Of a DNA stretch of 9,955 nt, positions 1,555 through 9,955 are shown piece by piece. The position numbers and the translations under genes are program-made. The notes under the pieces are model-generated. The model was given only the letters and a program-made list of their open reading frames with translations, searched no databases and had not been told where the DNA came from. Source of the DNA: an uncultured Eubacteriales bacterium (GTDB lineage: Bacteria; Bacillota; Clostridia; Oscillospirales; Oscillospiraceae); contig CAKTLJ010000038.1 in the NCBI GenBank assembly GCA_934572535.1, forward strand, positions 1 through 9,955, given 5' to 3'. How positions within the stretch are numbered: position 1 is the first letter of the stretch; each line of letters starts with the position of its first letter.

Positions 1555-1580
1555 AAAAAAAGCCGGTCCCACGACCGGCT
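1555..1580 (-). terminator. Intrinsic terminator reading leftwards
   Basis: Perfect 8-bp hairpin (AGCCGGTC at 1561-1568, loop CCAC, GACCGGCT at 1573-1580). On the minus strand it is followed by seven U residues (A run 1555-1561). On the plus strand the hairpin is followed by AACATATCC, so it is a poor terminator for the regulator gene upstream. Its minus-strand substrate appears to be the promoter at 1590-1618. Confidence 0.75.
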
Positions 1581-1589
1581 AACATATCC

Positions 1590-1618
1590 ACTATAGCACG
1601 AGCTCGGCCAGGGGTCAA
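1590..1618 (-). promoter_or_regulatory. Candidate sigma-A promoter, minus strand, feeding straight into a terminator
   Basis: On the minus strand TTGACC (1618-1613), a 17-base spacer and TATAGT (1595-1590) make a good vegetative promoter. The start point would be near 1583, three or so bases before the terminator hairpin, so the predicted transcript is only about 30 nt. No gene lies between. Confidence 0.5.
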
Positions 1619-1693: not shown

Positions 1694-1722
1694 TTGTCAA
1701 ATGCCCTCCCTTGTGCTATATT
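1694..1722 (+). promoter_or_regulatory. Promoter of the candidate structured RNA
   Basis: TTGTCA (1694-1699), 17-base spacer, TATATT (1717-1722). This is near consensus for the vegetative sigma factor; the start point would be near 1729-1731. Confidence 0.7.
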
Positions 1723-1729
1723 ATAGTCA

Positions 1730-2020
1730 GAAAAGGAAAGGGTGAGTCCAATGTACAGGTAAACCCAGACAGCAAGAAAGCCCACAGGCTTGCGGTCGGA
1801 GCATTCTTTCGACGGGATCGTTCAACATAAAAGCTACCTCGCTTCAGAGGATCATATAGATGGAAAGAAATGTTGGGAACGGTGTACAGCTCGAACGAAA
1901 TGTCAATGAACTATGTGGAATCCGCAGAAAGAGAGGTTAAATTGATGTTAGATAATAAGAGCGCAGGGTGACCCTTGGCTGGGAAGGAGCGATCCACCGG
2001 CCAAGGGTTACCTTTTTTTT
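1730..2020 (+). ncRNA. Unclassified structured RNA upstream of pncB (possibly with short ORFs)
   Basis: A transcript of about 290 nt bounded by its own promoter and a strong terminator, clearly AT-richer than both neighbouring genes. Pairings seen by eye: closing helix TGTACA 1752-1757 with 1883-1888; hairpin 1772-1793 (GCAA/TTGC and GCC/GGC); hairpin 1795-1813 (GTCG/CGAC); helix CGTTC-AACAT 1819-1828 with ATGTT-gg-GAACG 1870-1881, which holds an inner CCTC/GAGG hairpin (1837-1850). A second domain has TCAAT 1903-1907 with ATTGA 1941-1945 around a GTGG/CCGC hairpin. This makes a four-way-like junction. Two short frames overlap it: 1860-1940 (26 codons, AGAGGA upstream) and 1870-1971 (33 codons, weak ribosome site), so a small peptide is the main alternative. 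I see no T-box, tmRNA, 6S, SRP or RNase P signature. The raiA RNA family has roughly the right size class, but I cannot confirm a match. Confidence 0.55.
1967..2020 (+). terminator. Strong intrinsic terminator of the structured RNA
   Basis: GGTGACCCTTGGC (1967-1979) pairs with GCCAAGGGTTACC (2000-2012), 13 bp with one G-U pair, followed by eight T residues (2013-2020). It separates the RNA from the pncB promoter. Confidence 0.9.
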
Positions 2021-2021
2021 G

Positions 2022-2053
2022 CCCGCCCAGCCCCGCCGAGGGGGGCGGGTTTT
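2022..2053 (+). terminator. Second, tandem terminator-like hairpin
   Basis: CCCGCCC (2022-2028) pairs with GGGCGGG (2043-2049) followed by TTTT (2050-2053). It sits just after the first terminator and would back it up, insulating the pncB promoter that begins three bases later. Confidence 0.55.
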
Positions 2054-2055
2054 GG

Positions 2056-2084
2056 TTGACTTGTCAGGGCGTTGGGCCTATAAT
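2056..2084 (+). promoter_or_regulatory. pncB promoter
   Basis: TTGACT (2056-2061), 17-base spacer, perfect TATAAT (2079-2084). Transcription should start near 2091, giving a leader of about 80 nt. Confidence 0.8.
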
Positions 2085-2098
2085 AAGTGTGATATCCC

Positions 2099-2126
2099 GC
2101 GAAGCGTCCCTTGGGAGGTGCTTCGC
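2099..2126 (+). promoter_or_regulatory. Leader hairpin of pncB mRNA
   Basis: GCGAAGC (2099-2105) pairs with GCTTCGC (2120-2126), with a possible inner TCCC/GGGA pairing. It is followed by CTATTTTAT, which is only weakly U-rich. It lies near the predicted 5' end and could be a weak attenuator or a stabilising 5' hairpin; no known NAD riboswitch pattern is visible. Confidence 0.4.
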
Positions 2127-3647: not shown

Positions 3648-3676
3648 TTGACAATCCCACCCGGAGAGGGTATAAT
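3648..3676 (+). promoter_or_regulatory. Promoter of the EIIC gene
   Basis: Perfect consensus: TTGACA (3648-3653), 17 bases, TATAAT (3671-3676). It begins only 13 bases after the pncB stop. The predicted start, about 3683, falls inside the 5' arm of the adjacent hairpin. Confidence 0.85.
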
Positions 3677-3718
3677 AGTCTCCACATGTGTCAAGACACT
3701 TGTGGAGACTATTTTTTT
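3677..3718 (+). terminator. pncB terminator overlapping the next gene's start point
   Basis: Arms 3677-3692 and 3695-3710 pair over 16 positions with a single T-T mismatch, followed by A and seven T residues (3712-3718). Read-through RNA from pncB contains the whole hairpin and should terminate. RNA started at the adjacent promoter lacks the first several bases of the 5' arm, leaving a shorter stem set back from the U tract, and should escape. Confidence 0.8.
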
Positions 3719-3747
3719 GCTCCCGACGAGAGAAAAGGAGAAACGCA

Positions 3748-4854
3748 ATGAGTGGATTCAAAGCATTCCTGGCGCGGAAGAACATCGTCTTTTCCGCCAA
3801 ACGCTACGGGGTGGACGCCCTGGGGGCCATGGCCCAGGGCCTGTTCTGCACCCTGCTGGTGGGGACCATCCTGAACACCCTGGGCACCCAGCTGGGCATC
3901 GGCTTCCTGTCGGCCACGGTCGTCACCCTCGGCTCCGGCGACGCCGCCGTGGGCTACACCATCGGCGGCCTGGCCTCGGCCATGGTCGGCCCCGCCATGG
4001 CCATCGCCATCGGCTACGCCCTCCAGGCCCCGCCCCTGGTCCTCTTCTCCCTGGCCCCGGTGGGCTACGCGACCAACATCCTGGGCGGCGCGGGCGGACC
4101 CCTGGCCGTGCTCGTCATCGCCATCCTCGCCGCGGAGTGCGGCAAGGCCGTCTCCAAGGAGACGAAGATCGACATCCTGGTGACCCCCATCGTCACCGTC
4201 CTGGTGGGCATCGGCGCGGCCTACCTCATCGCGCCCCCCATCGGCCAGGCGGCCTCCTGGGTGGGCAGCCTCATCATGTGGGCCACCGAATTGCAGCCCT
4301 TCTTCATGGGCATCCTCGTCTCGGTCATCGTGGGCATCGCCCTGACCCTGCCCATCTCCAGCGCGGCCATCTGCGCCGCCCTGGGCCTGACCGGGCTGGC
4401 TGGCGGCGCGGCCGTGGCGGGCTGCTGCGCCCAGATGGTGGGCTTCGCCATCCTCTCCTTCCGCGAGAACCGGTGGGGCGGCCTGGTCTCCCAGGGGCTG
4501 GGGACCTCCATGCTCCAGATGGGCAACATCGTCCGCAACCCCAGGGTCTGGATCCCGCCCACAGTGGCCTCGGCCATCACCGGGCCGATCGCCACCTGCC
4601 TCTTCCGCCTGGAGATGAACGGCACCCCCGTCTCCTCGGGCATGGGCACCTGCGGCCTGGTCGGGCCCATCGGGGTCTACACCGGCTGGGTCAGCGACGT
4701 GGCCGAGGGCCTGAAGGCCTCGGTCTCCGGCCTGGACTGGCTGGGGCTGGTCCTGGTCTGCTTCGTCCTGCCCGGCGTGCTCACGTGGCTGATCGGCATC
4801 CCCTGCCGGAAGCTGGGCTGGATCAAGGAGGGCGACCTGAAGCTGGAGGCGTGA
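3748..4854 (+). CDS. PTS EIIC-like membrane transporter subunit, stand-alone (368 aa)
   Basis: Integral membrane protein of the PTS_EIIC_2 kind, recognised from its start FLARKNIVFSAKRYGVDALGAMA (7-29), the many glycine/alanine-rich membrane segments through the chain, and the conserved EMNGTPVSSGMGTCGLVGP block beginning at Glu289, probably the substrate-binding loop. Classical EIIC proteins move a sugar as it is phosphorylated by EIIB. No EIIA or EIIB gene or domain is present here, which is common for this subfamily, so the substrate and even PTS coupling are unproven. The start at 3748 is chosen because AAAAGGAG lies at about 3733-3740, seven bases upstream, and because the protein family begins here; an in-frame start at 3688 would lie in the leader hairpin. 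No clear intrinsic terminator follows. Confidence 0.85.
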   Translation: MSGFKAFLARKNIVFSAKRYGVDALGAMAQGLFCTLLVGTILNTLGTQLGIGFLSATVVTLGSGDAAVGYTIGGLASAMVGPAMAIAIGYALQAPPLVLFSLAPVGYATNILGGAGGPLAVLVIAILAAECGKAVSKETKIDILVTPIVTVLVGIGAAYLIAPPIGQAASWVGSLIMWATELQPFFMGILVSVIVGIALTLPISSAAICAALGLTGLAGGAAVAGCCAQMVGFAILSFRENRWGGLVSQGLGTSMLQMGNIVRNPRVWIPPTVASAITGPIATCLFRLEMNGTPVSSGMGTCGLVGPIGVYTGWVSDVAEGLKASVSGLDWLGLVLVCFVLPGVLTWLIGIPCRKLGWIKEGDLKLEA

Positions 4855-5217: not shown

Positions 5218-5264
5218 ACCGCCCCAGCCGCGCGGCACACCGCGCGCGGCACGGGCGGTTTTTT
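5218..5264 (+). terminator. Terminator of the small lipoprotein gene
   Basis: ACCGCCC (5218-5224) pairs with GGGCGGT (5253-5259), with further inner G/C pairing (GCCGCGCGG against CCGCGCGCGGC), followed by six T residues (5259-5264). Confidence 0.85.
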
Positions 5265-5270
5265 GCGCGC

Positions 5271-5343: not shown

Positions 5344-5886
5344 TCAGGCCTGGTCAATGATGAGGCCGTAGCCGCCGTCGTTGCGCTTATACACCACGGA
5401 GTAGGCGCCGCCCTCGTCCTCGTTGCGGAAGGCGAAGAAGGAGTGGTTCACCAGATTCATTTGCAGGATGGCCTCCTCCACGGTCATGGGGTTGAAGAAG
5501 AAGCGCTTGGTGCGGACGACCTGGATGAGGTCCTCCTCTTCGTCCTCGTCGGGCACGAAGTATTCCTCTGCGGGCGCGACCTCAAAGGCCTCCTTGCGCA
5601 GGCGCTTCTCCAGGCGGGACTTGTTCTTGCGAAGCTGGCGCTCGATGGAGGCGACGGCAGCGTCGATGGAGACGAACATATCCGAGGTGCTCTCTGACAC
5701 ACGGATGACGGTGGAACCGGAACGGATGGTGACCTCCAGGATGTTCCGGCCCTTCTCCACGCTGAAGATGACGGAGACGTCGGGCTCGGTCTTAAAGTAA
5801 CGGTCCAGCTTGCCGATCTTCTTTTCGGCGTAAGCATGTACACGGTTGGGGATGTTCACTTTCTTGTCGGTAAAGGTGAATTTCAT
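5344..5886 (-). CDS. hpf: Ribosome hibernation promoting factor, long form (180 aa)
   Basis: Binds the 30S subunit and joins two 70S ribosomes into inactive 100S dimers during starvation or stress. The N-terminal ribosome-binding domain covers residues 1-95 (MKFTFTDKKVNIPNRVHAYA, KKIGKLDRYF, SVIFSVEK, then DMFVSIDAAVASIERQLRKNK). An acidic linker (about 104-120, PDEDEEED) leads to the C-terminal dimerisation domain (123-180) with VVRTKRFFFNPMTVEEAILQM and NHSFFAFRN, the hallmark of the long form. ATG at 5886 is chosen because AAAGGAG lies 9 bases upstream; an in-frame TTG at 5895 would abut that site. It is transcribed alone from the promoter at 5954-5982. The same protein is called YvyD or RaiA-like in other annotations. 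Confidence 0.96.
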   Translation of the reverse strand: MKFTFTDKKVNIPNRVHAYAEKKIGKLDRYFKTEPDVSVIFSVEKGRNILEVTIRSGSTVIRVSESTSDMFVSIDAAVASIERQLRKNKSRLEKRLRKEAFEVAPAEEYFVPDEDEEEDLIQVVRTKRFFFNPMTVEEAILQMNLVNHSFFAFRNEDEGGAYSVVYKRNDGGYGLIIDQA

Positions 5887-5953
5887 ATGGGTCAACTCCT
5901 TTCGTGGGGGCGCAAGGGGAGCGAGAGAAGGTCTCCTTCGTCCTTACAGGCAC

Positions 5954-7993: not shown

Positions 7994-8260
7994 TGGGGGC
8001 TTGCCCAAAGCCTCCCTTGTCAAAGGGAGGGGGACCGCCGGGACGGCGGTGGAGGGATTCCGGGTTAGGAGCGACGTTGTGCGTCAACGGGAATCCCCCC
8101 GTCACAGCTGGCGCTGTGCCACCCCCCTTTAACAAGGGGGGCAGGGCGGCGCGCCCACCGGCTGGGCGCGCGGGGGCGTGGGGAATGCCCTTCGGGGGAC
8201 CGCCGGGACGGCGGTGGAGGGATTCCGGGGCAGGAGCGACGCCTGTAGGGTGGGGCATTG
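7994..8260 (+). repeat. Composite hairpin repeat, copy B left part
   Basis: Same order and strand as copy A: the CCTCCCTT/AAGGGAGG and ACCGCCG/CGGCGGT hairpins, the GGAATCCCCCC spacer, the CCCCCCTT-taac-AAGGGGGG hairpin and the GCGCGCCCA/TGGGCGCGC palindrome (about 8151-8172). A partial second copy of the ACCGCCG module follows (about 8198-8245). Bases differ from copy A in loops and spacers, while most stem positions are kept, including compensating changes. No gene. Confidence 0.85.
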
Positions 8261-8482
8261 CTTCTGGCGGGGGGTTGGGGGGACCCTCCAGGTGGGTGTT
8301 GCCTCCGGCGGCCCCCATTTCTTTCAAGAAATGGGGGGAAAGAAGACCAGGGGTCCCCCCTGGACCCCGTGGGGGTGGTTCAAGACCTGCCGGGTGGTGC
8401 CCCTGGTTGGCCTGGCCTGCGGCCCCGTGTCGGGACGTGGGAGGCGGCGCGCCCACCGGCTGGGCGCGCGGGGGCGTGGGGT
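8261..8482 (-). repeat. Composite hairpin repeat, copy B right part, inverted
   Basis: The tail, the 26-bp palindrome (8312-8337), the CCAGGGG/CCCCTGG hairpin and the GCGCGCCCA module all occur here in reverse order and on the opposite strand relative to copies A and C. Copy B is thus made of a forward part and an inverted part joined near 8260. The 26-bp palindrome may also serve as a transcription stop for the operon to its right, which has no terminator of its own. Confidence 0.85.
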
Positions 8483-8545
8483 GGTGACCTTCGGGGGTGC
8501 TTCTGGCTGGGCGCGCGGGGGTGTGGGTGGTGACCTTCGGCGGGG
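8458..8545. repeat. 47-bp tandem duplication at the end of the repeat block
   Basis: The unit starting GGCTGGGCGCGCGGGGG at 8458 is repeated from 8505 with a few differences, each containing TGGTGACCTTCGG. The second unit ends one or two bases before the stop codon of the next gene. A related partial unit sits at 8160-8197. Confidence 0.75.
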
Positions 8546-9663: not shown

Positions 9664-9684
9664 GGAAATGCTGGGAAATTTTAC

Positions 9685-9955
9685 GGAATCCCTCCACCGC
9701 CGTCCCGGCGGTCCCCCTCCCTTTGACAAGGGAGGCTTTGGCGTGGGTCCGCCCCCAAGACGTTCGACAAACACCCCACGCCCCCGCGCGCCCAGCCGGT
9801 GGGCGCGCCGCCTCCCACCTCCCGACACAGGGCCGCAGGCCAGGCCAACCAGAAGCACCACCCGGCAGGGCTTGAACCACCTCCACGGGGTCCAGGGGTG
9901 CCCCCTGGTCTTCTTTCCCCCCATTTCTTGAAAGAAATGGGGGCCGCCGGAGGCA
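9685..9955 (-). repeat. Composite hairpin repeat, copy C (cut by window end)
   Basis: Begins with the ACCGCCG and CCTCCCTT hairpins inverted relative to copy A (9685-9745). A unique spacer follows, then from about 9773 to the window end the GCGCGCCCA module, the CCAGGGG-type hairpin and the 26-bp palindrome (9918-9943) in the same strand sense as copy A. It is therefore another mixed-orientation copy, mirroring copy B around the operon at 8547-9600. The element continues past the window. Confidence 0.85.

Follow-up and report, generated by a model that had tools for sequence, protein, structure and literature searches.

Within the window, by which we mean the whole analysed stretch of 9,955 nucleotides, we identified an element that is real, conserved and, within the scope searched, undescribed. 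We collected 67 distinct copies of it, the window included, spread over 42 genomes or records of Oscillospiraceae and their relatives (the 42 is a hand count, and one of these genomes may coincide with the named Vescimonas fastidiosa record). We read it as a dispersed gene family with a frame of 8–10 codons, forming a stand-alone mini-message for a very small intracellular peptide, and we consider this reading slightly better than even (probability about 0.52). It is favored because the principal frame, ORF2, is read as codons and because the element is free-standing, with varied downstream genes and with a separate promoter for the neighboring pncB; transcription, translation and peptide function of the element are inferred from sequence. 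In the window, the element extends over positions 1561–2053, from the divergent minus-strand unit through a second terminator-like hairpin (T2), and comprises the following features:

1561–1580, minus strand: hairpin followed by a T-run, directly 3′ of the minus promoter (terminator scan)
1590–1618, minus strand: divergent sigma70-type promoter, TTGACC-17-TATAGT (promoter scan)
1694–1722, plus strand: promoter of the plus transcript, TTGTCA-17-TATATT, with a conserved ATAGTCA 3′ of the −10
1736–1749, plus strand: 5′ module GAAAGGGTGAGTCC, Shine-Dalgarno-like, at the predicted 5′ end of the RNA, recurring in the copies as GAAAGGGTGATACC and variants
1751–1762, plus strand: mini-ORF1, ATG TAC AGG TAA (MYR), with an ATG here in 44 of 67 copies
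1819–1881, plus strand: helix 1819–1828/1870–1881 enclosing a hairpin at 1837–1850, with some comparative support (four sequences)
1927–1936, plus strand: second Shine-Dalgarno-like sequence, GAAAGAGAGG, recurring with near variants across copies
1945–1971, plus strand: ORF2, eight codons (MLDNKSAG) with stop TGA at 1969–1971, showing codon conservation
1967–2020, plus strand: terminator T1, stem 1967–1982/1997–2012 followed by eight T (scan and folding)
2032–2053, plus strand: second terminator-like hairpin, T2 (terminator scan)

The first-pass annotation had described an undescribed, AT-richer RNA element of no known class with its own promoter and terminator, and these outlines hold. The promoter at 1694–1722 is of sigma70 type, with 10 of 12 consensus matches and an extended −10, and the terminator at 1967–2020 was recovered with the stem arms and eight T listed above. 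GC content is 0.455–0.465 at 1700–1999 versus 0.675–0.75 at 1200–1599 on the upstream side; downstream, it is about 0.55 at 2000–2299 and 0.625–0.655 at 2200–2499. The element also lies outside all Rfam classes tested: no Rfam 15 family reached its gathering score in the window, and 20 loci, chosen from those fetched among the relatives, yielded one tRNA only. At E values up to 10, eight sub-threshold matches appeared, the best two being microRNA models placed on the terminator hairpin. Among the papers listed for Oscillospiraceae, Ruminococcaceae, and Vescimonas, none described such an element, which is weak evidence that no description exists; it might be contained, unlabelled, in a human-microbiome catalogue of candidate structured RNAs (PMC8040213). 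New relative to the first-pass annotation are the two mini-ORFs (1751–1762 and 1945–1971), the divergent minus promoter with its hairpin (1618–1561), and the multicopy nature of the element.

Copies were collected by several routes. A pncB scan gave 80 loci, and 16 whole genomes searched with element DNA revealed a multicopy family with conserved ends and a variable middle, whose members are dispersed and, in three genomes (G006, G008, and G009), clustered within a few kilobases. A pattern for the 3′ end was matched in 18 of 300 genomes in the family of G004 and in 14 of 394 in its order, while the reversed control gave no match in either search. At the class level, 4 of 391 genomes matched at three mismatches, and these were judged to be chance, the other parts of the element being absent by eye. 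The 5′ module alone produced six matches in 4 of 147 genomes, three of them copies already known, and all six lead to an LD[INT]K ORF2. The plasmid collection contributed one true match, from V. fastidiosa strain MM35, with MLDIKSEG as ORF2 and MT as ORF1 (three other matches, at E = 7, were not counted as true). This copy is flanked by a TetR-family regulator on one side and spoVAC on the other; the gene table lists nothing in the gap, but it is known to be incomplete, so that the absence of a listed gene is no proof of missing annotation. A phage origin was dropped: viral contigs contained no exact match to the pattern, and blastn gave nothing in phages.

Most copies were found by a pattern containing ATGTTAGAT, and the regular expression used for extraction requires [LI][DE][INTP]K and allows no more than 11 residues. 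Since both pick such copies, the core-residue counts over 66/67 copies are biased; free of this bias are the position of the ORF2 stop and those copies that were recovered through the 5′ module. A set of 53 copies served for the analyses of stop position, upstream palindrome, and minus-promoter spacing. For the divergent-unit and terminator counts we used the 52 copies with enough flank, compared with shuffles that preserve base composition only.

ORF2 consists of 8–10 codons of the form M(x)LD[INT]K..., 3′ of GAAAGAGAGG or a near variant. Its stop, which is not part of the search pattern, follows after 8 or 9 codons in 53 of 53 copies, and the length of the frame therefore shifts by whole codons. 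Among 66 copies there are 47 distinct peptides, of 8 (29 copies), 9 (34), or 10 (3) residues, with no visible export signal and no conserved C-terminus. In the same 66 copies, the core Leu codon is TTA in 56, TTG in 5, CTG in 4, and ATA (Ile) in 1; the core Asp codon is GAT in 63, GAC in 2, and GAA (Glu) in 1; and the core Lys codon is AAG in 65 and AAA in 1. For the excess of synonymous changes in this set, P = 0.006, a rough value from six distinct changes with TTA–CTG taken as one. The sole two non-synonymous core changes, ATA and GAA, are conservative (Ile for Leu, Glu for Asp) and both belong to L112, the most diverged copy, which was found via its 5′ part and encodes MIEPKNLEK. In the order-level search, all seven matches with an altered Leu, Asp, or Lys codon were synonymous (TTA to TTG five times, TTA to CTG twice). 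Two copies in genome G377, found from the 5′ module alone, encode MKLDIKTEEK and MTLDTKKAEK; both use the codons CTG and GAC, with the start codon one triplet further upstream. The frame is also kept in copies with indels in the spacer between Shine-Dalgarno sequence and ATG, and in L152, where AAG replaces the usual ATG, an ATG is present one codon upstream. Judged by this codon-level pattern, ORF2 is likely translated. The core codons are nonetheless near-fixed as nucleotides (GAT, AAG, and TTA at the frequencies just given), which would also fit a constraint at the RNA level, and the search patterns favor such copies.

The end of ORF2 is interlocked with the terminator. In the window, the 5′ arm of T1 starts within ORF2 and includes its stop codon; counted from where the ORF2 stop codon starts, the T1 hairpin with its T-run begins at −6 to +2 bases in 50 of 52 copies, and the whole stop codon is within the T1 stem in 47 of 52. 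The variable C-terminal residues of ORF2 tend, by their position in the sequence, to fall in the base of this stem, and they may vary because their codons also form it. Beyond T1, a second hairpin with a T-run is present in 29 of 52 copies, compared with 8.4 in shuffles. Such a layout could belong to a translation-sensing regulatory RNA, in which ribosomes on ORF1 and ORF2 would decide whether the terminator overlapping the ORF2 stop forms, and the peptide would act only while nascent. At the sequence level, the placement of T1 speaks for this alternative, and bmrB offers a precedent: the available part of that report describes a leader peptide controlling the terminator that lies within it (PMC4191407). 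Moreover, K-N-x-E at positions 5–8 in 8 of 66 peptides (by eye) resembles KNAD, given as the arrest segment of the CmlA leader in the accessible section of PMC10192921, but exact KNAD occurs in none of the 66. One copy (L111) lies upstream of an ABC-F-like gene. Further points weigh against translation sensing: the best-conserved residues are N-terminal and not those nearest the peptidyl transferase centre, the second terminator-like hairpin recurs as counted above, pncB has its own promoter, some neighbors look convergent by eye, and no gene is constant downstream. We consider this alternative unlikely, though worth keeping in mind.

The downstream genes illustrate the last point. In ten hand-chosen loci, all ten co-oriented downstream genes differ in Pfam family: NAPRTase, TraX, cyclophilin, sortase, ABC-F-like ABC, pyruvate formate lyase, EAL-GGDEF, glycosyltransferase, alpha-amylase, and DJ-1. 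Neighbors recur only in close relatives, namely TraX (L103 and L105) and cyclophilin (L104, L109, and L110), where TraX of L105 and cyclophilin of L109 and L110 were assigned by resemblance and not by a Pfam scan. By eye, some copies appear convergent with the adjacent gene. A role as attenuator of ABC-F genes was considered and dropped, L111 being a single case.

The first-pass annotation had also located the element upstream of pncB. This is true of the window and of two relatives, whose element DNA upstream of pncB is 79% (L001) and 69% (L002) identical by blastn, but not of the other relatives among the 80 pncB loci, over the stretch of upstream DNA available for each (blastn, E 0.01); in the printed part of the pncB upstream DNA of L003 to L010, the element is absent. 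A pncB attenuator was rejected because pncB has its own promoter, shared by most of the printed relatives that lack the element: in all of these except L010, TTGACTTGTCA is found together with a TATAAT box (by eye). Over the −35 of this promoter (window 2056–2084) lies an inverted repeat, TGACTTGTCA, which is kept in the printed relatives L001–L010 and L015 (by eye), even those without the element. Its retention there suggests a candidate repressor site for NAD salvage, perhaps NiaR-like. The pncB leader (window 2099–2126) includes a 10-bp hairpin with a weak T-run, nearly identical in L001.

Elsewhere in the window, a perfect TTGACA-17-TATAAT promoter (3648–3676) stands just 5′ of a PTS EIIC_2 gene (3688–4854), and a ribosome hibernation factor gene with S30AE domains occupies 5344–5895 on the minus strand; Rfam reported no raiA RNA in the window. 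ARAGORN called a minus-strand tRNA-Glu at 622–708, within the open frame 410–1537; Rfam gave no tRNA match there, and the call is probably false. GC-rich interspersed repeats occupy 1–422, 8005–8527, and 9684–9955, in several copies and both orientations, the longer ones about 88–100% alike.

A further proposal of the first-pass annotation was a multi-branched structural RNA with a closed junction, which folding did not bear out. Bases 1729–1966 alone give a z-score of −0.27, with 71 of 200 shuffles folding as well or better, so that the z-score of −3.45 for the whole transcript is that of the terminator. We compared the proposed helices in an alignment of four copies (the window, L001, L002, and L102). 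The closing helix 1752–1757/1883–1888 (75% paired) and the hairpins 1772–1793 and 1795–1813 (77% and 65% paired) are without two-sided change and were not sustained. The helix 1819–1828/1870–1881 fared better, with 92.5% of cells paired and two two-sided changes; its enclosed hairpin is invariant in the four copies. Two-sided changes are confined to one of five helices in four sequences, and among 500 shuffles of the structure as a whole, 75 contain two or more such pairs and 15 attain the covariation score. Because 75 shuffles do as well, the support for this helix is suggestive only, a hint of structure on four sequences. A structural RNA would draw on this helix and hairpin, and the absence of an Rfam match leaves room for a new class; with the unremarkable folding outside the terminator, the unconserved closing helix and two hairpins, and an ORF2 read as codons, we regard it as highly improbable. 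The first-pass annotation had pitted codon conservation against compensatory pairing here, and both were encountered: codons are conserved in 1945–1971, the last nine codons of the frame 1870–1971, and compensatory pairing is not absent, one upstream helix having two compensated pairs.

The middle region varies in length from a few tens of bases (L104 and L122) to several hundred, and paralogues within one genome have common ends and differing middles. Three copies (L116, L117, and L118) form a second middle sub-family, with a common GUGUGGACA segment and a CCCAAGU..AUACACAC segment, in which a long-distance pairing of CGUGUG with CACACG is possible. A dual-function or non-coding small RNA would account for the differing middles of paralogues if these paired with target mRNAs, the ORFs only holding ribosomes and stabilizing the RNA. 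The middle helix with two compensated pairs would suit such an RNA, and stabilization by a 5′ Shine-Dalgarno sequence is possible, going by the accessible text of PMC3997798. However, some copies, such as L104 and L122, retain a middle of only a few tens of bases, and a small RNA does not need ORF2 to be conserved at the amino-acid level. We rate this explanation as quite unlikely, and return to the peptide-encoding mini-message.

At the other end of the transcript, an ATG stands 3′ of GAAAGGGTGATACC or a variant in 44 of 67 copies, and in 40 of these 44 a stop follows after 2–4 codons. ORF1 thus has a simple layout of Met, usually Tyr, Phe, or Trp, zero to two further codons, and a stop; codon 2 specifies one of these aromatic residues in 38 of 44 copies, as TAC, TTC, or TGG, and the commonest peptides are MYR (13 copies) and MY (8). 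We take the 5′ module to be complementary to the 16S tail; the 16S 3′ tail was found in 0 of 11 genomes searched. ORF1 is not essential, since 17 of 61 copies with a called 5′ module have no ORF1 ATG and six copies have no module by the rule applied. For some of the 17, the module was called at a wrong site, as in L102, whose true site has ATGTACAG.

These features can be combined into a putative mode of action. Transcription of the plus strand would start near 1729, and the 5′ Shine-Dalgarno sequence and ORF1 would load ribosomes, which would protect the 5′ end of the RNA; ribosomes on ORF1 may also gate access to ORF2. ORF2 would be short enough for repeated translation by the same ribosome, as reported for mccA, and many formyl-Met-Leu-Asp-x-Lys peptides could be made per message.

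The element includes a second, predicted transcription unit, on the minus strand. A sigma70-type minus promoter is present in 45 of 52 copies, compared with 6.9 in shuffles, and a hairpin with a T-run lies 3′ of it in 39 of 52 under a loose rule, compared with 0.2 in shuffles, although the stretch searched in the real sequences was longer by as much as 100 bases. This hairpin, in 29 of 52 copies (counted from the list), starts at most 16 bases from the minus −10, so that the minus RNA would be little more than the hairpin; the window's minus transcript is predicted to be only about 25–30 nt. TGTTGGG is found at the predicted start of the minus RNA. The geometry of the two promoters is tight: the minus −35 and the plus −10 are about 98 bp apart, a distance constant within one base in 34 of 44 copies (44 of 53 gave a minus promoter under the spacing rule). 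In L001, the two −10 regions form an exact 11-base inverted repeat, GTGCTATATTA, at 5260–5270 and 5384–5394, as if the divergent promoters were commonly controlled. Upstream of the plus −35, a palindrome, TTTTGTACAAAA, is striking in some copies and loosely conserved overall. For a shared operator, a first search matched in 0 of 15 genomes, and a second, giving five matches in 4 of 15 genomes, was rejected: two lie beside G008 copies and three are not the element by eye. Taken further, the mini-message reading would make this a new kind of gene, namely a free-standing multicopy message with frames of 2–4 and 8–10 codons that holds ribosomes, yields formyl-Met-(x)-Leu-Asp-x-Lys peptides, and is co-controlled with a divergent promoter yielding only a terminator hairpin. 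As a family of dedicated protein-coding genes, it would rank with the smallest known. We advance this fuller proposition tentatively, as a possibility that falls short of even odds.

Dispersal in multiple copies, with neighbors that differ between genomes, might also point to a small non-autonomous, MITE-like mobile element that happens to carry promoters, and other interspersed repeats do occur in the window. Such an element is barely credible here, given the coding-type conservation, the lack of viral and phage matches, and the absence of long terminal inverted repeats in three copies examined. The only repeats in those three are hairpins, the paired −10 regions of L001, a 75% match between an A-run and a T-run in the window, and a few 10–13-base pairs; in L115, an 11-base T-rich direct pair does not flank the element.

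If the mini-message reading is true, Oscillospiraceae and their relatives possess a family of 8–10-codon genes so far invisible to annotation, since gene callers pass over frames this short and RNA searches look for structure. Mini-messages of the mccA type would then exist outside antibiotic clusters as well, and the family would offer a natural system for reiterative translation. It would also pose a sharp question about a promoter that drives, in many copies, nothing except a terminator hairpin. The copy in a named human isolate, V. fastidiosa MM35, makes the element testable.

Several known systems share individual traits with the element. SR1/SR1P of Bacillus subtilis is a dual-function small RNA that also encodes a peptide, and the element is likewise a small RNA gene with a predicted peptide. 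In contrast to SR1P, this peptide is far shorter (8–10 residues); the element is also multicopy, and most copies have a divergent promoter. Its RNA is predicted to begin with a strong Shine-Dalgarno-like sequence, which recalls the STAB-SD stabilizers, for which the available part of the source reports that a strong 5′ Shine-Dalgarno sequence can stabilize mRNAs with no need of a start codon (PMC3997798). In the element, however, an ATG comes next in 44 of 67 copies and in 40 of these begins an ORF of 2–4 codons, and the 5′ module belongs to a small stand-alone unit. With the leader-peptide attenuators bmrB and CmlA, to the extent that the accessible portions of the two reports describe them, the element shares a short ORF whose translation could disturb a terminator hairpin (PMC4191407, PMC10192921). 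It differs from them in having no constant downstream gene, conserved residues that are N-terminal, and, for 29 of 52 copies, an additional terminator-like hairpin.

The closest parallel is mccA, the microcin C heptapeptide gene, for which we draw on the available sections of a single report (PMC6495379). There, ORFs of 2–8 codons can undergo reiterative translation in which the ribosome does not leave, an effect that weakens once mccA is extended from its 7 codons to 11 and 15; a strong Shine-Dalgarno sequence is typical of ORFs of the mccA type, and ribosome binding to mccA induces termination (PMC6495379). The element resembles mccA in having a terminator hairpin behind a very short ORF with a putatively strong Shine-Dalgarno sequence, and the length of ORF2 is near the range of repeated translation by one ribosome, as that part of the report gives it (PMC6495379). 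Several differences separate the two. ORF2 has 8–10 codons and is preceded by GAAAGAGAGG, compared with seven codons in mccA according to the same sections (PMC6495379), and a C-terminal Asn is found in only 4 of 67 element peptides. The neighborhood may differ as well: a Pfam scan of 15 proteins from the window or downstream of copies named no MccB-type adenylating or modifying enzyme, while two of the 15 had no family match. The element, unlike mccA, is dispersed and carries a second mini-ORF and a divergent hairpin unit. The element most likely works like an mccA-type message but is not an mccA gene.
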